Source: Agarophyton chilense (taxonomy: Eukaryota > Rhodophyta > Florideophyceae > Gracilariales > Gracilariaceae). From it: DNA of 64,000 nt. This document shows, in pieces, positions 210-57,000 of this stretch. Where the stretch lies: NCBI GenBank assembly GCA_030374765.1, contig JARGXX010000106.1, positions 1 through 64,000 of the forward strand. The letters are read 5' to 3'. The notes beneath the pieces were generated by a model. It saw only the letters and a list, made by a program, of their open reading frames with translations. It made no database searches and had not been told where the DNA came from. Each line of letters opens with the position of its first letter. Position 1 is the first letter of the stretch. The translations under genes were made by a program, and so were the position numbers.

Positions 210-1767
210 AATGGGGTGTGGATCTCACGGAGTAGACACAAAAACACGACAACGGCAAAACTAAATAGAACAACAATAAAAAAATTCAAAGATTGACCTG
301 AAAAGAGTCAGTCGGCGCAATGGCACGGCTTCCTATAACCGCTGCCCAAGGGAGTTGGACCCCTGGCTTCCAAAGCTTTTTTGGGTAGATGAAGGTTTCT
401 GCAGTCTACCTTCTCTCACGCTAAAGGAAGAAGGCGCGTTGCTCCCTACGAGGCGTCCATTAAATGGCTTGTGACCAAGGATATGCCTCCACCATTTTAA
501 CCCTCCCTGACCTCTTGCAAGAACTTGTGCAACCTTGAAAGCGAAGCTACTTCAACACCCAAAGTACGTTCCTGACGCGCAACCAATGCAGATTGCACGT
601 GGCTTGATCCTGAAAAGGAGTTCAGCCTGCAGAACGTAGCCTCCCCGTTTAGCACGGATCAAAAGCTCTTTATAGTACCTGTTCCGACAGTCCAATCGCC
701 CACTAAAAATGCCAGGCTCATAAACAAATTCAACAACCCTACCGGATGCAGTACGCAACGGCACCCCGTCCACAGATGCACCCGGGGTTCTCACCAGCTC
801 TTACCGATCGTCACTGTTATCCACTCTAAAAAGAGCCATCGGGAGCCCGCTTGAGGGAACACCTGCTTTTGTTCAAGCCACCAGGCTAACCTCCCCGTCG
901 CACTGGATAAAGATGATGACCAAACACAAACGATTTCTGAGCCCAAAACAGAAGGCTCAGACTTCAGCGAAACAAGAGTCGCACCCCGAAGAACTAACAC
1001 GAAAACCACACGGGGTTCCAAAGACGAAACAAAAAAGGGGCGACTCTAACAAGAACAGAACGCGAAGCAGAATGAAATCGACAACGACGGCCAAAACAAA
1101 GTCCCAAAGCAAAAAATAAACCATAAAACACGTCGAACCACGACCGCCAAGACGCTTTTCGGAAAGAACGCCAACCAAAAACATAACACAGATATCAACA
1201 CCGATTAAGTACAGCAATCAAGACACCCAACTCGGCGACGGCGAAATGAAGCGAAATCGAAACGAAACAACGAAAACGATACGACAGAGCGGGTATACAA
1301 CGGTGCGGGAGAGTGGGGACAAACGGAATTTGACGGCAGATGTCAGCGGGGCTAGGCCCATAACCTGATGTAGGTAGATGAAAAGGTTGAGGGTTGTAAG
1401 GGAAGGGCGCCAGCTCTGGCTAGAATTTACTTGGAGGTTGTAGATCTTCGACTTATATACTACTTCACTCTGATAGCCATCCAACCTTAAGCTCCTGTAA
1501 ACCCTAGATTACAAGCCGAGGATATTCAATACCACGAATCATATTCCACAATGACATTAAAGCCTAACCCAAACTCACTTCCACATACTACAGCAAGGTA
1601 CAACAGTGCACAATACACCATTACAATGACTTGAGCACAAACTCAACGTGCTAGCACATATTAAATGTAATCCGCCTCCATGCACGATCTTGTTCCAACA
1701 AAGCACTGCATGCCTTCTGTAATACACAAGAAAATATATATCCATTCTTCCAGAACATTCCATAGTA
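210..1767. other. No recognisable gene; possible LTR/leader of the flanking Copia
   Basis: Several short ORFs occur on both strands (552-794 minus, 913-1119 plus, 957-1217 minus), but none has a recognisable motif. The plus one is a Lys/Thr/Ser-rich low-complexity peptide. The minus strand near 330-345 reads GGTTATAGG, a partial resemblance to the initiator-Met half-tRNA primer site. If real, the 5' LTR of the minus-strand gag fragment would begin to its right. No second copy of such an LTR is in the window, so this stays a guess. Confidence 0.3.
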
Positions 1768-1973
1768 TGGGAAGCAATCGTATGCAGAGCGAGAGGGCTG
1801 TCAGTCTAATGTGTAGCATGCACTTGTAACGCGCGGTGGAACCGACGAAGATGGAACAGGCACAATTTGTCTTCCCTTGCTCCTCTCTCCTCAGTGTCTC
1901 GAGGTAGAAGAAGGGTGAAGTTCAGTATGTAGCACCGGCGGCATTGGGCCAGATGGCAATCGTGTATTGCACA
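1768..1973 (-). repeat. 3' LTR of Copia-A
   Basis: Aligns along its length with 8520-8725 (shared blocks include cgcggt.gaaccga.gaagatgga, tgctcctct and ggcattg.gccag.tggcaat). On the minus strand it starts TGTG and ends CCCA, i.e. TG...CA as in LTRs. The many substitutions between the two copies indicate an old insertion. Confidence 0.8.
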
Positions 1974-1985
1974 ACCCCCGCCTTG
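1974..1985 (-). other. Polypurine tract of Copia-A
   Basis: The minus strand reads AAGGCGGGGGTT immediately upstream of the 3' LTR, the position and composition expected of the plus-strand primer tract. It also shows that everything to its right up to 8519 is internal to the element. Confidence 0.6.
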
Positions 1986-2291
1986 GCGCCATAAAAAAAG
2001 TTTTTATTTTTTGAAGTGCGGCCAAATTCTCAAGAACTCCTTTCTGACCCTAAGCGCAATATTTTTTGGCGCATCTTCCTCACGGGCCAGGTATCTCAAA
2101 TAACCCCCCATGCCTATCTTCAGCGTTTTGCGATTACCCCCATTTTTCCGTTCGAAAACCGCACACGCGCCGAAAACGCTTTATTTGCAACGTCACTGCT
2201 TCGATCTGAAAGTGTGAATTCTTGACTCGGAACTGGACGTGTCACCTCTCTTCGAAAAGTGTGGACGACTTTCGCTCAGGTGAATCCATCG

Positions 2292-2588
2292 ATGGCTCGA
2301 ACTAAGCATACCGGTCGCAAATCTGTTGGCCGAAAACCCCCACCGCGCCAGCTTGCAGGCAGAGCGGCAAAAATCACAAGCGAGACATATCTTGACCAAT
2401 ACCTTAACAAGAATATTGTCAAGGTTCTCTGTTCGAAACTGCAGCGTGGCCTGAGGAAAATCTACGCAATCACATTGGAAGGCAGAAACAATCTCGTGCG
2501 ATTTAGCGAAAACGAAGCGATTATTCTTCTCGGGCGCAGGATACTCATTTTATCCGGCCGTTTCGTGGCACGCAGTTTGGAGGGTTGA
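2292..2588 (+). CDS. Small protein with histone H3 tail-like N-terminus (antisense ORF in Copia-A)
   Basis: A 98-residue ORF opening MARTKHTGRKSVGRK. Numbered as mature H3, residues A1 R2 T3 K4, T6, R8 K9 S10, G12, K14, P16, Q19 L20 A21 and A24 A25 are identical (16 of the first 25), including the modifiable K4, K9, S10 and K14; K18 and K23 are Arg. The ATG at 2292 is the first ATG in this frame (upstream codons reach only a GTG at 2259), so the tail would be N-terminal as in true H3. The remaining ~70 residues, basic and hydrophobic mixed, show no H3 histone fold that I can see. The stop at 2586 is followed two bases later by the ATG of the next ORF. It lies antisense to the host retrotransposon. 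It could be a captured H3 exon fused to other sequence, a chromatin mimic, or a decayed gene. Reading frame certain; function inferred only. Confidence 0.6.
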   Translation: MARTKHTGRKSVGRKPPPRQLAGRAAKITSETYLDQYLNKNIVKVLCSKLQRGLRKIYAITLEGRNNLVRFSENEAIILLGRRILILSGRFVARSLEG

Positions 2589-2590
2589 TA

Positions 2591-3640
2591 ATGTTCCGAT
2601 TGGACCTTACAGAGGCTTTGGACGACGACGACGATCCCGATATCAGAATTGAGTACAACGATTGGATGATCGAGAAGTTATGGTATTTGGGAGGAGGTCG
2701 TGGTAAAATTAAGGACCAAATCTATGCTCTGGAGCATGTCACTAACGTAGTGTGCCGCATCGATATCCATACTTTCCGAATCGAGTACAGTCAGGCAGTT
2801 GGAGGCGGTGCGTCGAGAAGTAGGGTGACGTATAATGAGGAAGGCGCAGAAGAAACCATCTATTTGGGAGTTAAGGACCGTTATGAAGCGACCAAGAGCA
2901 TTTAGGCTACTTGCAACGCAAAGCCAGGTCAAAGGCCCACCGTGTTTCAACCCGAAGCGCAGATGCCGTCGTCGGGCGTCCGATGTTTCCATCTCCTTCA
3001 TACGTCCGTGCAGTTTCGCGACGAGACGTTTCTGTGCCTTAAAGCTTCTCTAAGTATTGCATTAGCTCTCCCCATTAGGTCCGAGAAGGCTGCTCAGTGT
3101 TGGGCGTATCTCGTCGATCGTGTTACGAAAAACGCAGAAGATAATGAGATGTACTTGAACGCCGTTGCAGGTCTTGGGTTTAGTGATATTCTTGAGCTTG
3201 ACTATTGGAACCGGAAGGGGCGAGGGGAGGTCCGAGGGAAGTTTCGTGATCTCAAGGATATGCAGAGATTTGTTCGGGAAAAGACGCGTGTCATTATCCT
3301 CCATTACCTTCGTGATGGGAATGAACACCGAGAAGAAAAATTAGATTTGTGGAACTTCCGCGATAGTGGAAACGTCTTCCTTGTCAGTCTTCAGGCCATT
3401 GACGGGGACCTGCCTGCGATTTGCATAGATGGGGAGCGCAACATGATTATTGATCCAGTGGACAAGTGTCACATGGATCTCATGCAGGTTGCTCTCGAGT
3501 CCTGTGTTGGATCAGACCGTTCTTCCAGTCATATTGTAGACTGTCGCGTATTGCGTTTGCTCCCAGGGAGGAAGAATGGGAAACGGGCTCGCCGCGGGAA
3601 GATACATCGTCACCAAGAAGGTTCTTCAAACAGAGTTTGA
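2591..3640 (+). pseudogene. Unknown ~349-codon ORF with one in-frame UAG (antisense ORF 2 in Copia-A)
   Basis: One frame stays open from the ATG at 2591 to 3640 except for a single TAG at 2903-2905. It starts two bases after the H3-tail ORF stop, and the frame is also open back to 2507, so reinitiation or a -1 shift could couple the two. The N-terminal part has an acidic run (DDDDDPD) and a basic, glycine-containing IEKLWYLGGGRGK segment. The C-terminal third reads LPAICIDGERNMIIDPVD, followed by a cysteine-containing helix-like stretch and a Lys/Arg-rich tail. The pattern (x-V/I-C-I-D...I-x-D-P) recalls the His...Asp half of papain-fold peptidases, but the His position would be Ala here, so any such enzyme would be dead. 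This resemblance is weak. No confident family. Confidence 0.45.
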
Positions 3641-3879
3641 AATCTTTTCTATAGTAGATCCTAACCCTTAGGGTTCCATGCCTTAAGATGGTGGCCCATA
3701 GTAGATATGACAAATTTGCTTAGTATGGCTTGAAATATATCTTGGTTCGATTGAGTAAATGAATGATGATTGCCCTTTGTCAACACGTTGGCTTAGTGCA
3801 GACTTCCCGTTCTCCAACGCATCGAGGATATGTCTCCAGTTTTCAAGGAGTCACGGAGGCGCGACAGCGTGGGGCGCAA

Positions 3880-4307: not shown

Positions 4308-5198
4308 TCATGCCCATCTCTGCGACCAGCTGCTGCATGAAACTAGAAGGGTACGCGGCTTGAAGCAGCACACCATGGCCGAAGTAGTTGAGTTTTCCAG
4401 CAAGAGACTGGGTATCTCGGACATCTTCTTGGGTGCATGGATCCTCTGACTGTTTCCTCCGATCCCTCGAGATTGGAATGGGAGCGAGCTTTTACATAAA
4501 CTCTGCCATGTAGATCTCAATCGAGAAGTCTTAATATGCCGAATCCAAAGGCGGCTAAAGATAATCTCGTTCTTGAAGATGGCTTTGCCGACCTTGAAGT
4601 GAGCTGAGAGAGCCTCGGAGAATGTTTTAATCTCACTCTTTTGTCCGGCAAGGAGAAGATCGTCCACCAATTTGGCCAGGTGTAGAGAAATATGCCCGTG
4701 GTTGTTCGACAATAGAAACATCTCTGGCATACCAGGGGCAGTAAGAAATTCGTACTCGCATAGCCATTGCTCGATGCAAAGCTGCCAAGAACGACTGGAC
4801 TCTACGAGGCCATTCGCAGACTTGAGTAGCTTCCATACTTCGTCTACAAACTGTTCCCATCCCTTTGGAGGCCGCATGTATATATCTCGTTTGAGGTCGC
4901 CTCATTGCAAATACGCTCTAGAGAGATCAATGTTTACAAGGTAGAGGTGTAGTAAAGTTGCAAGGGAAAGCAGAAGTCTGCTGCAGGTAAATTGAGCCGT
5001 AGAGGAGTCAGATCGAATGTTATCTTTTTGGGAATCTCGATTCCTATGGGGTTCCAGTCAGCACTTGAGCTTAAGCTTACCACTCTCCCCATCGAACTTC
5101 GTCACGAAGAAGTGGTGGGAGGAGATAATATTTGCATTTCGCGGGAGTCCTTTGATGGAGACTGGCTTGTATGCCTTGGCATCAGAGTAGTTTCTTTT
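4308..5198 (-). pseudogene. Reverse transcriptase of Copia-A, frameshifted
   Basis: The longest frame (4308-4877) holds MRPPKGWEQFVDEVWKLLKS and the palm motif LAKLVDDLLLAG, i.e. an LVDD version of the YVDD box, as in Copia RTs. Just upstream, in shifted frames (4880-5160), the RT N-terminal segments are recognisable: ANIISSHHFFVTKFDGESG, then a NRDSQKDNIRSDSSTAQF block, then VNIDLSRAYLQ with the first catalytic Asp. At least one stop and frame changes separate these pieces, so no functional enzyme is encoded. Confidence 0.8.
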
Positions 5199-6494
5199 CT
5201 ATGCTTCGATGGCCTTGTCGGTTATCCATGGTGGGGCAAACTGGAGCTTGGCTTCTGTGGCTGGCTGGTCTACAATGAACTTCTTGATCTGCTCAAGAAT
5301 TCTTTTCACCGAAGACAATAGATTTTCGCCTAGGGTAGGGAACCTAAGCGAGGTGTCACCAACACCTCTGCAGAGTTGCAGGTTTCTGACATCCATTGAG
5401 GGTGCAATCATAGCAGTTTTGTCTTCTTTGGACGCAAACACGGATAAAGAGAACGGATGCATAGACCAAAAGTTTGGTTCGTCCGATATGTTTAGGTCGA
5501 AACTTAAAGGGTCTTGTGTGTTTTTCTCAGGGAAGTCTGTGACTTCTTCATCCTGGAGAGGCGGAAGAGAAGAACAATCGGAATAATTCCTTTCTTCAGG
5601 GACTGCGATTGGTTCTTCTTGTGCGTTGGTGTCCGCGAAGAACGAGTATCCAAGCTCCTGTTTGCCCAGTTTTTGTAAAAGAAATGAACGCGGGACTAAC
5701 CTTATGTCTTCGTAGGCGATCTGATGCTTTGGTCCCTGGAGATTTTTTCTAGGAGAGACCGACCTTATATGGTCAGTAGTAGTGACCACAAATTTCTTGT
5801 GCCAGGCACCATGTTTTCCGACTCTCTTGAAGACATATAACTGATTCTTTGGTACCAGAAGGTGTTGTGATAAAGGGTACGATGGCCTGATACGAAGAAG
5901 GGTGTGTACGGCACGCCTGGAAAGTTGTTCGCTGTAGAAAGCAAGGAGCTTCTCTGGTAGCATCTGCTTGGGTACCCCAAAAACAGAAGGAGTGTAGCAG
6001 TGAACAAGCTCGACGATGCTGAGTGACTTGTTACCATACACCAAATTCTTAAGGAATGTGGCTTTTAAGAGGTTCCCTGAGTCCGTGCGATACACTTGAC
6101 GAGTTTTCCTCAGATGAGGTTCGTCGAGAAGGAACGTTTGGACAAATATACGGATGGTCTCGTTGCTCGATTGGACGCTTCCAATTTTGTTTTGGCGTCG
6201 AGCAGGCCACGGTTCGAATGATATCTGATTCTCGCCACCCAATCGCTGAATTGAGACGTTATCGAACTCTGAGTCTCCTGGTAACTTTGATGGAGGCCCA
6301 AAGACATCAAAAAAGTGAACCACAATCATGTGAGCGGTATCAGTCATATCCTTTAAAGTCAATAAGACATTAACGGAGAGACCGGTTGATAAATCGTTTA
6401 TATGCAGAATGGGGAGCTTTCGAAACTCGCGTATGAATAGGAAATCAACTTGAGGGTGCTCGTTGTACTCATCCATTATTTTCTTGAGTGACAT
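5199..6494 (-). pseudogene. Integrase region of Copia-A
   Basis: A 431-codon open frame corresponding to the Copia integrase core plus the linker to RT. A core segment LTLKDMTDTAHMIVVHFFDV precedes FGPPSKLPGDSEFDN, whose Asp corresponds to the second catalytic Asp. Where the family has a VERSN-type motif with the catalytic Glu, this copy reads VQSSNETIR (Glu to Gln). The middle holds a basic PRKNLQGPKHQIAYEDIRLV segment typical of the post-core region. The C-terminal part is acidic linker. The frame is long for a decayed element, but the missing Glu predicts no strand-transfer activity. Confidence 0.7.
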
Positions 6495-6609: not shown

Positions 6610-7236
6610 TCATGTCCTTGGCGGAGAGATGGGACTGAAAGTGAAGCTTTTTGGCGAAACGACGGGCATGGGTTCGATCGCTTGATCCATGCCGTCCTTG
6701 CCAGATAGTTTGGCGATCGGATGAGAAATCGTACAGAGAAAGGAAGAATGAGAATAAACGAAGGATTTGAACGAAGGTTTTATCGAAGGAAGGACAAATA
6801 AGTGTGTTTGGCGGTCAATGTCTTCTCTTAGGACGTATATTGACAGAACTGCGTCATCCCGAAAGATTCCGACCGAAACGGGCACTACATGCGTTTTGTC
6901 CGAAGTCATGAGGTCCGAACGTGACACTATGTCGTTCCCAAGTAGCAAAGGACCGTCGCCTTCCGTAATGTAGAACTTAATGTCTGATTCCACATCGTTG
7001 AGTCCTTTGATCTTCAACACCCAACTTCCAAATATCAGTTTTGGATTTGAACATTCTCGATCATCATCGTGATATAAGGAGTCATAGTCAAGGTCTTCAA
7101 CGTGAAATTGGATGCCAATTGCGATTGATAGAGCAGCGGCAGAGTCAATGCTTCGCACAATATGGGGACAACAAATGTCAATGAAGGGGTTAGGATCTCG
7201 CGTACCACTAACCACATCAGAAGGAGCCCCAACCAA
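6610..7236 (-). pseudogene. Aspartic protease region of Copia-A
   Basis: Carries IVRSIDSAAALSIAIG, matching the retropepsin active-site strand with DSAA in place of D-S/T-G-A. About 75 residues later comes GDGPLLLGNDIVSRSDL, the flap/second-lobe LLG motif of retropepsins. It lies between Gag and integrase, as in Copia polyproteins, and ends in Ser/Pro-rich linker. The Gly to Ala change next to the catalytic Asp-Ser may impair activity. Confidence 0.6.
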
Positions 7237-7241
7237 TGACT

Positions 7242-8309
7242 TTAGCCATGATTGCGCTTCGATGGGGCAGCGCCTGGCGTAAATTGAGCGTTAAACCCAC
7301 GATTTCGTTTTCTGGAGGAATCTTTCCTCGGGTTTCTTCCTCCACGACGAGGAACTGTGGACCTACCGTCTAAGTCGTTGCTCGATATCACCACAATCGA
7401 AACAGAAAGACGACTTTCCATCTTTCCCGGCTTAAGATCGGTGCGTTTCCTCTTGCCATTGCCCGGTTTGAAAGACACGGTTGATGCATTTCCCTCTTTC
7501 CTATTTCCCAAGCGTGTTAGTACGCTCTCGTTGGATTGGAAAATTGCAAATAAGGCAGTTTGGACTTTCTGAACCACGATGTTTTCAAGGTCCTCCCTTA
7601 TATAGTGAGCAGTAGAGCTCGAAGAGGTAAAAGAAAGACTCCATATGACTGTAACGGCGTCATCCAGGTTTAGATGGCATCTGCGGGAAGGATGAATTAG
7701 CTTGTTGATAGAAGGAGTTGGGCTAGTCTTTGAGTGAGTGTCTGTAAGATTACCCTCGAACTCAACGACCACTTCATTGATCTTTCTCTCGGTTACGAAA
7801 AGCTTTACCTTTGTCGTATTGTGATTATTGCTCCTCGAAATCTTAAGGTGAGGCCTCCACAGCATTTCACGAAGGTGAATTACGGACTCCTGAAACTTCA
7901 AAAGATTGATGTGGTACTGGGTATCCCCAGCATAACTTCCACTTCTCATACGAGTTTCGGCGAGAGAGATTGGTTGTAGTTTGGCATTGGTCAACGTCTC
8001 CTCACACAAAGATGCGTTGTTGAGTAGCGTTATTGCCAGAACATCTCCAACCTTAGATGAGAATGATAGTCCACCATGCACGAGATGCTCGGCTGCCAAG
8101 CCGCCGAAACGTGATACGAAGCTAGCCACAGGCTCGACCTTGCAACGACAGCAGTTTGTAACACGATTGAAAGAAGAAACCAAAAAAGAAACAACAGCAA
8201 TCGGATGGTCGACTTCAACAAGTTTACCATTTTTGCCTACCGCTTTGACTTGGTCCTCTTGCTTGTAATGAACAACTCCTTTTTCCTGGGCTTCGTCGCC
8301 ATTGAACAC
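7242..8309 (-). pseudogene. Gag of Copia-A, frameshifted before the zinc knuckle
   Basis: The 355-codon frame is first after the 5' LTR. A capsid-like helical segment reads EPVASFVSRFGGLAAEHL and DVLAITLLNNASL. The C-terminal basic region is present, but the CCHC knuckle sits in a different frame near 7365-7410 (CFDCGDIEQRLRR then a stop: CX2CX4 with Gln for His and a stop codon in place of the last Cys). This points to a frameshift near 7420 and loss of RNA binding. Confidence 0.6.
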
Positions 8310-8515: not shown

Positions 8516-8519
8516 GCTA

Positions 8520-8725
8520 TGGGAAACAGTCGTACGCAGAGCAAGAGGTCTGCCGGTCTAATTTCTACTATGCGCTTGAAACGCGCGGTAGAACCGAGGA
8601 AGATGGAACGGGCACAAGGTGCCCCCTCTTGCTCCTCTGTCTACAGTTTTTTGAGGTGGAGCAAGGGTGTGGCTTAGTATGCAGCGCCGGTGGCATTGAG
8701 CCAGGTGGCAATCATGTGTTACACA
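8520..8725 (-). repeat. 5' LTR of Copia-A
   Basis: Partner of 1768-1973, of equal length (~206 bp). On the minus strand it starts TGTGTAACACATG and ends TTTCCCA. The right edge is set by where similarity with the other copy stops. Confidence 0.8.
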
Positions 8726-9085
8726 CATACAGCCTGTACTATATATTCAACATAAGATCTCGAAAGCGTGGACACGTGTATACGGCAGACTCCTACTACC
8801 TTCCCACCAACTACAGTGACAGCACTTATCAATCATACGATATCCAACAATAACGTCATATTTGCAGCATCTCTTAATGCTCGCATTCGGGACAAATAGG
8901 GGACCCACATTCAGGACTTGTTCTGGGCCATATTTCACACACAAATAGTTGATCTTGTGTGGGCCCTATAAAAAACATTGATATCCTTGAGAAACCCGTT
9001 CGATTGTAGTTCTCGAAATTTAGAGTATATAACATGTAGCATGACTGTCAGTCAAACTTCTGAGATGTCTTATAGACGCCCTGAA
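8726..9085. other. Spacer between Copia-A and Copia-B
   Basis: AT-leaning 360 bp with no usable ORF. It contains a TATA-like CCTATAAAAAAC near 8966. I see no gene or repeat partner in the window. Confidence 0.4.
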
Positions 9086-47242: not shown

Positions 47243-47818
47243 GTGAACGAGGTCACCACGTGCAAAGAAGCACTTGAACAGATGCAGAGAAACGTCCTTA
47301 TTTCCACATCTAGGAAGCAAAAATCTGCAATCAACTCCCACAACCAGAAGAAAGGAGTACGCCCCTTATTTTCCGAAAATGATTTTGTTCTGAAAGGGTT
47401 AGTTGAGAAGAAGGAAAAGCACAAGCTTTCCATGCGACTAATTGGACCATTCCGTGTCATGGAATGCAAAAGCGAGTACATATTCGAAGTCGAACATCTA
47501 ATATCTCAGAAACGGGAATTGGTGCACGCGCATATGCTCAAGATTATTTGCAACAAAGATTTTGAACATAGAGAAGAAGAATATAACCATTTCGCCTACC
47601 TAAAAAAAGAAGTAGTAGTTGTGGAAGAATTTCTAAATATCCGACAAAAAGACGGGAGAACAGAACTCGAAGTGATATGGAAAGGATTCGAGGACAAAGA
47701 AACCGATTGGGTTGTTGTAGAAAGCCTCAAACAGGTTAGCGACCTTTTACAAGAACATCTGGAAAGCGTCAGAAAGGACGGAACTGCAAAAGAAAAACGT
47801 CTGGTCAAATTTTTATGA
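47243..47818 (+). pseudogene. Integrase C-terminal domain with chromodomain
   Basis: A 191-codon open frame. The first half has FVLKGLVEKKEKHKLSMRLI and GPFRVMECKSEYIFEVEHLI, the SH3-like GPY/F module. After LVHAHMLK, VVVEEFLNIRQKDGRTELEV followed by IWKGFEDKETDWVVVESL is a chromodomain (EVIWKGF with the W later in DW in place of TWE). In chromoviruses this module steers integration to marked heterochromatin. It is the best-preserved part of the element. Confidence 0.8.
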
Positions 47819-53754: not shown

Positions 53755-53846
53755 TGTGAGTGGAAGTCACTGTCTCTTCACTTTATTTTTTCGTCGTCGT
53801 TGTCTAGCGATTAAGTACTGGCGTCCTACTGTAATGCTGTTTGACA
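53755..53846 (-). repeat. 3' LTR of Copia-D
   Basis: TGTGAGTGG...TTTGACA, 92 bp, differing from the other copy at three positions. Extremely short for an LTR. Confidence 0.95.
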
Positions 53847-55348
53847 TCAAAAATGTGGCGCAGCAATGAAGTGGTGTTGTTTGACAGTCCCCGGTTGGTG
53901 CGCCTCATTTTTGGTGCGGGCTTGGGAGGACTTGAAGTGCTTTCGCGAAGCACTTGGTATCTGTCTCTGTGCAGCGGTTTGGTAAATATGTCGGCGGTCA
54001 TTTTTGTGGTCGGTGTGCGGATGAGGTTGATAGTGTTGCCGGAAACTTGGTGTTGGAGGTAATGGTGTCGAATGTCTAAATATTTCCTTTGTTTCGTTGG
54101 TGCTTGGTTTTCTGCGATGATGACGGCGGAGTGGTTGTCTATGTGATGGGGGATAGCTTCCTTGATGGGGGTCCCGGTGTCGCGGAGCAGTTTGGCGAGC
54201 CATAGCGTGTGGCGAGCGGCGTCTGTAGCTGCAATATACTCCGCTTCGGTTGTAGATAAGGCTACGACATTCTGTTTGCGCGACGTCCAGGATATCGGTG
54301 TTGCGTGGATACTATGGAGGGTACCCGTGATTGATTTGCGGTTCTTTGCGTTGGCGAAGTCGGCGTCGCTGTACACCTGGAGTGGGTGGAGCTGGGGGTT
54401 GTTGTGTGATGCGGGAGAGTATAGGAGTTCATGTGTGCGAGTTCCTTTGAGATATCTGAGCAGTGTTTTTAGTGCTTGGTCATGGTGCTTCTGCGGTTTG
54501 GACATATGCTGGGCGAGACAGTTTGTGGCATATGCTATGTCGGGACGTGTGCTGTCGGTGATGTAGCGGATCTCGCCGATAATTGGGCGGTAGCGCGTTG
54601 CGTCCTGTGGTGAAAGAGGAGGGGTGTTGGGTTGTTGGTCCAACGTGACAAGTGTGTTGTATGGTGTCTGTGTCGGGTTGCATTGGTGCATGCCTGGTCG
54701 TTGCAGTAAGGCGTCGATGCTGTCGGGCTGGGAGATATGCGTGCCTGAGGCGGTGCGTTTTATGGTCCAGTTGAGAAAGCGGGTGGGTGGTCCGATTCGT
54801 TTGATCTTATATTTGCTCAGCATCTGGGTGTACAGTTCATCGATGAGGGATTGAGTTGCGGCGAGAACGAGAAAGTCGTCGATCGTGGAGCTGACGATTG
54901 TGTATCCCTTTGGTGTATTTCGTGTATAGAGACAGGGGTCGTTTTCGGAGCTTGTGAATCCGATTGAGGTAAGAAATTGTTGTAGACCATGATTATAGGA
55001 GTACGCCGCTGGGGGGGATCCGTAAAAGTTGCCAACAAAGCGGCCGTATGTGCTTTGGTGACGGTATGTTCCGTCAAACTTGGTCATTTGCTTGACGTAT
55101 ACAGGTCGGGGGTGTTGGTATTCTTCATGAAGATATGCGGACTTTATGTCAAAGTGCTCGAGGGGTAAGTTGTGCATTGCGTGTATCGCTATGAGCATTC
55201 TTTGAGTGTTTCTATCGGCGGTGTAGGTGGTTGTGTGGTTGGGGTCCAAGTGAAGTCCGGGTTTCATAAGGTCACCTCTAAGGTTGCATCTCGCTTTTCG
55301 TTGGACAATGTTCCCTTCAGCCGACCTTTTATGTCGGTATAGCATCAT
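53804..55348 (-). CDS. Copia-D reverse transcriptase and RNase H
   Basis: A 514-codon frame. RT: LPLEHFDIKSAYLHEEYQHP (first Asp), YSYNHGLQQFLTSIGF, DPCLYTRNTPKGY and IVSSTIDDFLVLAATQSL (TIDD palm box). Connection: RTASGTHISQPDSIDALLQR and a RPDIAYATNCLAQHM block. RNase H: VYSDADFANAKNRKSITG, ALSTTEAEYIAATDAARHTL, HHIDNHSAVIIAENQAPTKQ and TADIFTKPLHRD. All RNase H acids and the RT aspartates are present. The C-terminus extends into the 3' LTR. No upstream ATG is needed if it is read as polyprotein. The best-preserved coding sequence here. Confidence 0.85.
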   Translation of the reverse strand: MMLYRHKRSAEGNIVQRKARCNLRGDLMKPGLHLDPNHTTTYTADRNTQRMLIAIHAMHNLPLEHFDIKSAYLHEEYQHPRPVYVKQMTKFDGTYRHQSTYGRFVGNFYGSPPAAYSYNHGLQQFLTSIGFTSSENDPCLYTRNTPKGYTIVSSTIDDFLVLAATQSLIDELYTQMLSKYKIKRIGPPTRFLNWTIKRTASGTHISQPDSIDALLQRPGMHQCNPTQTPYNTLVTLDQQPNTPPLSPQDATRYRPIIGEIRYITDSTRPDIAYATNCLAQHMSKPQKHHDQALKTLLRYLKGTRTHELLYSPASHNNPQLHPLQVYSDADFANAKNRKSITGTLHSIHATPISWTSRKQNVVALSTTEAEYIAATDAARHTLWLAKLLRDTGTPIKEAIPHHIDNHSAVIIAENQAPTKQRKYLDIRHHYLQHQVSGNTINLIRTPTTKMTADIFTKPLHRDRYQVLRESTSSPPKPAPKMRRTNRGLSNNTTSLLRHIFDVKQHYSRTPVLNR

Positions 55349-55518
55349 GAGAGGTATGACCGTCTTGGGGGGTGGTATGAAGTTTGTGGGTAACCATTCA
55401 ATGCTGGCGTGATTGTCCAGGTTTTGTAGTTCGGTGTCGTTGGCGGTTTGCCATTGTGAGGCATCGGGGTATTGTCGGGCTTGAGCGAGATTTGCGGGGC
55501 GTGGAGGGTCGATATGGA

Positions 55519-57000
55519 TTACGTTGGGAGTAGGTGTTTGTGTGTGGTTGTCGCTTTGAAAGCGGTAGTGGTAGGCGTGGAAGGATCGATGGTCAGGTGG
55601 TAGGCGTGGAAGTCACTTGGCCTTATCTCTTGATAGTTGTGGTTGCGAAGGTTGCGTACCATGATATGCGTGAGGGAGGTGGCATACATATACCTTGCTG
55701 GGTCGGCTCGTGCTTCCAGCTTTTTCTTTGGGGCGTAGACGGGTATCGTCCCTAGTTCCCCAGATGTGAAGATGCGGTTTATTTGTGGTGTAGTGCCGTG
55801 CCACAGTTCGTAAGGGGAGGTGTTGGTGGAGTCATGATGAAGAAGGTTGTATTTGAAAATTGTATCGCGAGCTGCATCTTCCCAGTACGAGTCGTCCAGA
55901 TTTGGCGTGTTCATTAAGGCGCGAACGGAGTTCATGATGGTGCGGTTCAGCCTTTCGGCGATTTTGTTTTCTTGGGGTTGATGAGGTGTGCGGAGGTGAA
56001 GTTGGACTTTTTGTTTGCGGTAGATGTTATCCATATGCTGTGATGTGTATTCTTTCGCGTTATCACTTCGAAACTTGGTAATATTGTGTCCTTTCTGGAG
56101 GCGGATATGGTGAAGGGTGTCGTCGATGTAGGAGGGTATTTGTTTTCGTTCTTTGATGAAGTGGGCGATGGCAAGTTTGGTTGAGGCGCATATGATTGTG
56201 AGCATGTGATTGTTGCCATGGTTTGATGTGGGCTTGATTGGTCCGCATGTATCGGAGCTGACGTACGCTCCTGAGGGGTATTTGTGATGCTTGCGTTTGT
56301 GTGGTGCGGTGTGCCCCTTGGCGTGGTCACATGCGCTGCAAGTGAGTTGGGTGTTGGTTGGTAGGTGAGTGGGCATGTTGGGGATAAGTCGTTTCTTTGA
56401 TGTTAGAGCTAGTTTGATCGGGTGGGCGTAGTTCATTTTGAGGTGCCATTTGTGTGTGGGGTGGTGGATATTGACTCGCGGAGGTGGGGGTGCCGAATTG
56501 CAGAGTGTGCTGAGTACTTTTGTTGTGTTCGGTGTTTGGCGTGGTGTGGATATGGGGAGAGTCGGGCTGGGTTTTGGTGTGTTGTGTGTGGGGGTTGTGC
56601 GTTTGCTTTCGCATGGTTTGGCTTTCACCTTGTTTTTGCGCTTGCCGGAATTGCGGGGTTTACTTGGAATGGTTCGTGCAATTCGGGCTGTGGTATGATC
56701 TTGGAATGTTCCCTTAAGTCGGTATTGGTGGTCGCGCCATGGGGCCGTGGCTAGGACTATTGGGGGCCGTTTTGTTGTGTCTATGACACAGCCTTGGAAC
56801 TGTGTGAATGTCAGAAGTCCGTACCGGCTGGCGAGATCGTGAACGGATAAAAGGTTCTGTTTGAGGTGGCGGTTGGTGACAGCGTGTGTCTTGATGTGAT
56901 TATTCCAGTTGGTGCGGATCTTGATGCGTCCACTGTGGGTCCATAGTGTCGGCTGATGGGTTGCAGAGTTGGTTAGTAGGGGTTTGGTGAGTGGGGTCAT
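55519..57000 (-). CDS. Copia-D integrase with pre-integrase domain
   Basis: A 493-codon frame. Starts in the region before the zinc domain (HLKQNLLSVHDLASRYGL). Zinc-binding C-x2-C is in LTCSACDHAKGHTAP. Core: YVSSDTCGPIKPTSNHGNNH (first Asp), FRSDNAKEYTSQHMDNIY (second Asp), PQENKIAERLNRTIMNSVRA (Glu). All three catalytic residues are intact, followed by SPYELWHGTTP. The RT frame follows after a frame change at 55349-55519, so the two are not one ORF as it stands. Gag and the retropepsin are absent upstream. Confidence 0.85.
   Translation of the reverse strand: MTPLTKPLLTNSATHQPTLWTHSGRIKIRTNWNNHIKTHAVTNRHLKQNLLSVHDLASRYGLLTFTQFQGCVIDTTKRPPIVLATAPWRDHQYRLKGTFQDHTTARIARTIPSKPRNSGKRKNKVKAKPCESKRTTPTHNTPKPSPTLPISTPRQTPNTTKVLSTLCNSAPPPPRVNIHHPTHKWHLKMNYAHPIKLALTSKKRLIPNMPTHLPTNTQLTCSACDHAKGHTAPHKRKHHKYPSGAYVSSDTCGPIKPTSNHGNNHMLTIICASTKLAIAHFIKERKQIPSYIDDTLHHIRLQKGHNITKFRSDNAKEYTSQHMDNIYRKQKVQLHLRTPHQPQENKIAERLNRTIMNSVRALMNTPNLDDSYWEDAARDTIFKYNLLHHDSTNTSPYELWHGTTPQINRIFTSGELGTIPVYAPKKKLEARADPARYMYATSLTHIMVRNLRNHNYQEIRPSDFHAYHLTIDPSTPTTTAFKATTTHKHLLPT

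Follow-up and report, generated by a model that had tools for sequence, protein, structure and literature searches.

The plus-strand open reading frame (ORF) at 2292-2588 of the window (the whole stretch of DNA analysed, 64,000 nucleotides) encodes MARTKHTGRKSVGRKPPPRQLAGRAAK... at its N-terminus, a likeness of the tail of histone H3. On balance we read this ORF as the front part of an antisense accessory gene of a Copia LTR retrotransposon, here in a copy that is dead; the product of the gene may engage the chromatin machinery of the host through its H3-mimic N-terminus. That a working lineage of the element held the antisense protein under purifying selection is strongly supported by the pattern of codon changes among copies, and the H3-like core of the tail (residues 1-10) has probably been kept by selection as well.

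The translation of the ORF starts MARTKHTGRKSVGRK. It confirms the count made by a model that saw only the letters of the DNA (hereafter the sequence-only reading), namely that the protein and H3 agree at 16 of its first 25 mature positions, with K4, K9, S10 and K14 among them; taken over 26 residues the number is again 16. Chance resemblance to H3 is ruled out: 200,000 shuffles that preserved the composition gave 12 matches at best and 3.3 on average. The match was also said to begin at the first ATG of the frame, and it does: the frame is open for 22 codons further upstream with no ATG in them, so that MARTK marks the first one; a single out-of-frame ATG lies upstream, at 2110. The remark that no histone fold follows the tail agrees with our Pfam scans, which gave no Histone match. 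A downstream fold, and with it an H4-like stretch picked out by eye, is likewise unsupported by hhalign comparison of the middle region with host H3 and H4 (0.2% and 0.5%, from a shallow alignment with Neff 1.8).

The features of the element that carries this frame are collected in Table 1. The reverse transcriptase match on the minus strand together with the LTR pair bears out the description of the ORF as antisense inside a Copia element. The bases flanking the two LTRs, compared by eye, are catag (1761-1765) and catac (8726-8730), equal at four of five positions. The window copy of the element is dead, with both gag-pol and the plus-strand gene in pieces. A near-identical copy (L058) matches it at 99.5% over 8,860 bp, flanks included, so some of the closest relatives (on contigs C82, C14 and C81) are segmental duplicates, and not every one of them stands for an insertion of its own. 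In two long copies (L056 and L057) colinearity with the window begins at the left LTR and reaches deep into gag, and another (L055) retains only the equivalent of window 1763-3702.

Table 1. Features of the Copia element and of its antisense gene, in window coordinates
Feature	Position	Strand	Basis
Left LTR (3' LTR for minus-strand gag-pol)	1766..1973	.	Direct repeat, 208 nt, 79% identical to 8518-8725
First piece of antisense gene: H3-like tail (codons 1-27) and start of middle region	2292..2588	+	Frame translation
Second piece of antisense gene, other frame (stop to stop)	2507..2905	+	Aligned by eye with copies L013, L014, L015, L020
Third piece of antisense gene: rear domain and basic C-terminus	2906..3640	+	Cys and Asp of Cys-His-Asp pattern present; His position is Pro
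Copia pol reverse transcriptase piece	4308..4877	-	RVT_2 (PF07727), E 2.5e-09, above cut-off
Further pol piece	5199..6494	-	No Pfam match; served as family marker for copy counts
Further gag-pol piece	6610..7236	-	Placed by position; no Pfam match
Gag region	7242..8309	-	Placed by position only; no Pfam match
Right LTR (5' LTR for gag-pol)	8518..8725	.	LTR pair with 1766-1973

Other elements occupy the same window. Another Copia element, at 53804-57000, is far better preserved than the one studied here: its gag-pol frames stay open over 514 and 493 codons, and it has an RVT_2 match at E 5.9e-27 and an rve match below the cut-off (E 6.7e-06). An ORF at 47243-47818 encodes the C-terminal part of an integrase and matches the chromodomain weakly, below the cut-off (E 0.0022); a possible reader of histone marks would share the window with a possible mimic of them.

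The sequence-only reading spoke of a chromatin-facing peptide. What we find is not a small H3-tail peptide: the 98 residues of this ORF make up the front of a protein about 450 residues long. It departs from the family frame after about codon 82, and the three successive pieces listed in Table 1 point to a gene of about 450 codons with a basic end, antisense to pol; the coordinates of the second piece were carried over from copy L012 (1716-2111 plus the stop, where L012 position + 791 gives the window position). In other copies the frame continues uninterrupted for longer, reaching 399 codons stop to stop in L014 and 294 in L020. In protein searches of the same genome the 98 residues drew 61 matches, in which a single copy is at times counted by its separate fragments, and the rear part drew 105, more distant relatives included.

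In the window, L056 and L057, and also in a Gypsy-type relative (L059-L061), the antisense gene sits between pol and the 3' LTR, on the strand opposite to gag-pol. The pol segment had 43 matches, from which we counted the 31 of at least 900 bp and dropped the 12 shorter ones. The tail frame lies on the expected side and strand in 25 of these 31 pol copies; three have the rear part only and three have neither. Eighteen of the 25 have the frame at 2.5-3.6 kb from pol, and the median over all 25 is 2,908 bp, a set that includes four near-identical duplicates and two copies at about 12 kb. This co-occurrence with pol, together with the colinear L056 and L057, indicates that the element normally carries the antisense gene, and we are almost certain that it is integral to this Copia family. 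The same evidence rules out a host-locus gene or a nested insertion.

Whether other family members retain the tail had been posed as a question on which the mimic would stand or fall, and the tail proved widespread. Of 49 aligned rows we removed 11: near-duplicates of the window copy (L009, L011, L012, L017, L006), rows without an aligned tail (L026, L070, L082, L086) and poorly aligned rows (L080, L073), leaving 38 copies for the selection counts. Identity to H3 among these 38 has a median of 17 residues and a maximum of 21/26, and the family overall is closer to H3 than the window copy is. At least eight of residues 1-10 are kept in 24/38 copies, and all ten (ARTKQTARKS) in 7/38. Among the modifiable positions K4 is kept in 33/38 copies, K23 in 30/38, K9 in 29/38, S10 in 26/38, K14 in 23/38 (it is frequently Q) and K18 in 0/38; at T11 most rows have V or D instead. 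Identity to H3 drops as terminal branch length grows (rho -0.75), which fits decay after insertion and implies source copies nearer to H3. A diverged relative (L095), whose LTR and leader DNA are about 65-76% alike to the Copia family, reads MGRTKQTARKSTGRTALRRQIARKAAR (22/32 H3 residues).

On a tree of the 38 copies over 510 bp we counted changes at codon positions 1 and 2 against those at position 3. Terminal branches gave ratios near 2:1 (80:37 for residues 1-10, 132:67 for residues 11-26 and 930:532 for codons 28-150, the last with p 0.0074), and the changes on them look near neutral. Internal branches gave 217:173 for codons 28-150 (p 3.9e-06); within the tail they gave 8:12 for residues 1-10 (p 0.013) and 31:13 for residues 11-26 (p 0.75), a split that was picked after the per-codon table had been inspected and not fixed beforehand. 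For the whole tail the internal-branch count of 39:25 is not significant (p 0.20). An IQ-TREE tree, of modest support (11/35 values at 95 or more), gave similar figures: 7:11 for residues 1-10 (p 0.014), 34:15 for residues 11-26 and 218:174 for codons 28-150. Across 40 bootstrap trees p fell below 0.05 in 27/40 for residues 1-10, in 0/40 for residues 11-26 and in 40/40 for codons 28-150.

Two clades that stand at dS of about 1 from each other have ARTKQTARKS in common. Over the 16 pairs between them, codons 28-150 show dN 0.13-0.18 and dS 0.89-1.16, and residues 1-10 show no non-synonymous differences in 6/16 pairs and 1-3 in the other 10. Synonymous differences in these ten residues are also few (1-3 per pair), so their conservation is perhaps partly a DNA-level or small-number effect. 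The pairwise comparison of dN/dS proposed in the sequence-only reading, codons 1-26 against the rest, does not favour the tail, which is the higher of the two (0.56-0.61 versus about 0.25-0.43, in 100/100 resamples); among shared variants N/S is 0.82 in the tail versus 0.45 elsewhere. We give more weight to the branch-based result because pairwise figures blend decay after insertion with the evolution of source copies. Neutral drift of codons 1-26, which had been named, jointly with an absence of plus-strand RNA, as grounds for dropping the mimic, would apply to one part of the tail and probably not to the other: residues 11-26 look relaxed on internal branches, and residues 1-10 bear signs of constraint.

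The antisense gene has relatives in other element families. A Gypsy-type family of the same genome has a full-length homologue (L059), 424 codons long when read from its ATG and 471 between stops, that is 22% identical to the Copia antisense protein over 335 aligned positions (E 5e-18). Matches to H2C2 and the rve integrase in this family lie on the opposite strand, so the homologue is antisense there too. Its N-terminus is basic, MAVTRQRVRAQRTRRVPRSHVRG, with a faint H3 tail (8/26, shuffle p 0.0017), from which it follows that the gene can manage without a good mimic. In the Gypsy-type copies L059, L060, L061 and L087-L090, which are about 95-97% alike, the gene is nearly intact; five more copies have one large internal deletion in common (276-codon frame, e.g. 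L062). A third family (L067, L065, L066), Copia-like by eye, has antisense pieces of the rear domain and no visible H3 tail.

The Cys, His and Asp columns of the rear domain are common to all three families. Within the Copia family the Cys is present in 20/21 rows, the His in 14/19 and the Asp in 16/19, with the Cys alone above average conservation. Cys-His-Asp is the residue order of papain-like proteases. The likeness to these or to OTU-type cysteine proteases consists of this order and a helix-like stretch after the Cys; no protease profile or structure in Pfam or PDB matched the rear domain, and we offer only tentatively, and with more doubt than belief, that it may be an active protease or a ubiquitin/SUMO-type hydrolase.

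Searches beyond the genome returned little except H3 itself. A phmmer search of PDB gave nothing; the profile of an alignment of the family (A1) drew 74 weak PDB matches, best E 0.22, and the best 60 of these 74 were all to H3 or H3-like proteins, in the tail only. At E 0.001 we found no database homologues of the 98-residue ORF (6 candidates), of the rear 341 residues (1,959 candidates) or of alignment A1 (7,999 candidates scored), and in IMG/VR none of 18 pattern matches was confirmed; all these searches require shared short words and so may miss distant relatives. Pfam at a loose threshold gave only weak, sub-cut-off matches, to Nexin_C, DUF4820, UPF0158 and Rad9, and to the PAF histone-like domain (E 0.12, residues 1-40).

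Nine light-harvesting matches in the same genome suggest that the host is an alga, perhaps a red one. Several other loci of the host are related to H3. A separate repeat (L096-L101, on contigs C31, C113, C77, C7 and, twice, C75), 85-89% alike over up to 1 kb, contains a 5' piece of an H3 gene of the host; it is about 80% identical to L038 along at most 143 bp and ends at codon 43. In those copies that retain the start, the reading frame is altered near codon 14. This repeat is a plain H3 capture that seems not to code for protein and has no relation to the element studied here; it is similar to host H3 at the DNA level, as a recent capture should be. A single-copy H3-like gene (L042, C96:452661-452999) has a core that matches H3 and a strongly altered N-terminal tail, and is either a variant or a pseudogene; at L094 (contig C16) H3 and H4 genes adjoin, divergently. 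Among candidate partners of an H3 tail, the host has six matches to SWIRM proteins; a search for an H3K9 methyltransferase (Pre-SET) gave no match, but its control was blank too, so that this result carries no weight.

A possible objection to our interpretation is that the tail is a passenger, captured by the element from the start of an H3 gene of the host and with no function of its own. The L096-L101 repeat demonstrates that such captures occur in this genome, the apparently relaxed residues 11-26 are what a passenger would look like, and host H3 has 32-bp DNA matches at 84-88% to copies L015 and L020. However, where a copy still encodes the H3 residue, its codon is the one used in the host H3 genes L038, L039 and L040 in 249/626 (40%), 217/626 (35%) and 174/626 (28%) of cases, against a uniform-codon expectation of 30%: synonymous sites are near random, yet the amino acids still match. 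This rules out a recent capture at the DNA level, and with it the recent host insertion that the sequence-only reading had named as a ground against the mimic. Part of the codon divergence may lie on the host side, since the three host genes are themselves as divergent, agreeing mutually in 11-14/26 codons. The passenger explanation also has to face the internal-branch bias of residues 1-10 and their freedom from amino acid change in those clade pairs that show none at dS of about 1, and we consider it improbable. Old descent of the tail from H3 is likely, given that the match is ungapped through residue 26; convergence on a pre-existing basic N-terminus is possible, as the Gypsy-type homologue starts in register with its own basic N-terminus.

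By either route, the tail might instead be a basic segment for nucleic-acid binding or nuclear import, H3-like by descent or convergence, with H3 readers uninvolved. The Gypsy-type homologue, where charge alone may suffice, is consistent with this, as are the K18 that is never kept and the K14 that is frequently Q. But most Copia copies preserve the uncharged T3, Q5, T6, A7 and S10 no less than the basic residues, so that charge alone is no explanation, and we hold this alternative, too, to be unlikely. It could further be the antisense transcript that matters and not the protein, for example through double-stranded RNA formed with gag-pol RNA, an idea raised for antisense ORFs in the discussion of them in PMC7264820. 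The dN/dS of about 0.15 between clades in codons 28-150 and the strong position-3 excess there on internal branches argue that the protein is the thing kept, leaving the transcript a very slim chance.

Returning to the mimic that we favour, its apparently constrained part (residues 1-10) takes in K4 as well as K9 with its surrounding ARKS motif. These two sites are the epitopes of N-terminal H3 readers and of K9 enzymes. The antisense protein would enter the nucleus, to judge by its basic C-terminus, and removal of its methionine would leave ART... as a free N-terminus; the natural peptide ARTKQTARKSVGGK is a putative partner of H3-tail proteins. The antisense protein would present a false H3 tail, with its K4 and A7-R8-K9-S10 sites, to proteins that read, write or erase marks on the true one, and these might thereby be tethered to the antisense protein or diverted from the chromatin of the element, to the benefit of its transcription or integration. 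That the antisense protein engages H3-tail-binding proteins at all we rate at slightly better than even; that the net effect would be relief of silencing rather than targeting is a weaker proposition, which we would not lean on. The rear domain, with its papain-like order, may be an enzyme delivered to the H3-tail partners. A fuller and more speculative version, which we think unlikely to hold in all its parts, would have the product be an antisense-encoded nuclear enzyme with an H3 decoy as its N-terminus: the tail would dock on the host H3-tail machinery, the Cys-His-Asp domain would act on that machinery or on its ubiquitin-like marks, and the element would so disarm its own silencing. The module would then have moved between Copia and Gypsy-type elements or been inherited by both, and the Copia line would have either sharpened its H3 match or kept the one it had.

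Histone mimics are known from influenza NS1, G9a, the SNAG-domain factors that act on LSD1, bracovirus H4 and EZHIP, and the SNAG factors depend on a free N-terminus. The antisense protein resembles these viral and cellular mimics in carrying a short copy of a histone tail, modifiable residues included, in a non-histone protein, and differs from them in being encoded by a retrotransposon, and antisense. Compared with H3 itself, up to 21/26 of residues 1-26 are identical and no histone fold follows. To our knowledge a copy of H3 that runs from residue 1, as here, is longer than most known histone mimics. A literature search of open-licence full texts turned up no account of a transposable element that encodes a mimic of a histone tail.

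The gene itself has a clear counterpart in the antisense additional ORFs (aORF-3R) described between pol and the 3' LTR of plant LTR retrotransposons, such as Grande gene23, RIRE2, Retand and PvRetro13, in the accounts of these ORFs in PMC7264820 and PMC11963269. Their function is stated as unknown where PMC7264820 treats it, and Retand elements are described in PMC11963269 as having TRP28 and a few other domains at the aORF-3R position. Like the aORF-3R genes as those accounts present them, ours is defined by its position and orientation, its presence in most copies, conservation on a par with other element proteins and the want of a clear outside homologue, with nuclear or DNA-related hints for some of the plant ones; the protein-level conservation that codons 28-150 appear to have places the gene alongside them. 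It differs in its setting, since the plant genes are known in Gypsy-type elements and ours sits in Copia, with a relative of Gypsy type, and in its domains, which in plants include TRP28, SMC, Mis12, topoisomerase and others and here begin with an H3 tail. Compared by way of Pfam, the antisense protein gave no match to the plant aORF-3R proteins, and the word histone is absent from the main texts of PMC7264820 and PMC11963269. If the selected H3 tail is true, it would be the first concrete molecular hypothesis for an antisense accessory ORF, and would mean that a transposable element mimics chromatin, whether to oppose the host silencing machinery or to work with it. The class of antisense accessory genes was already known; an H3-tail N-terminus on the product of one is new.
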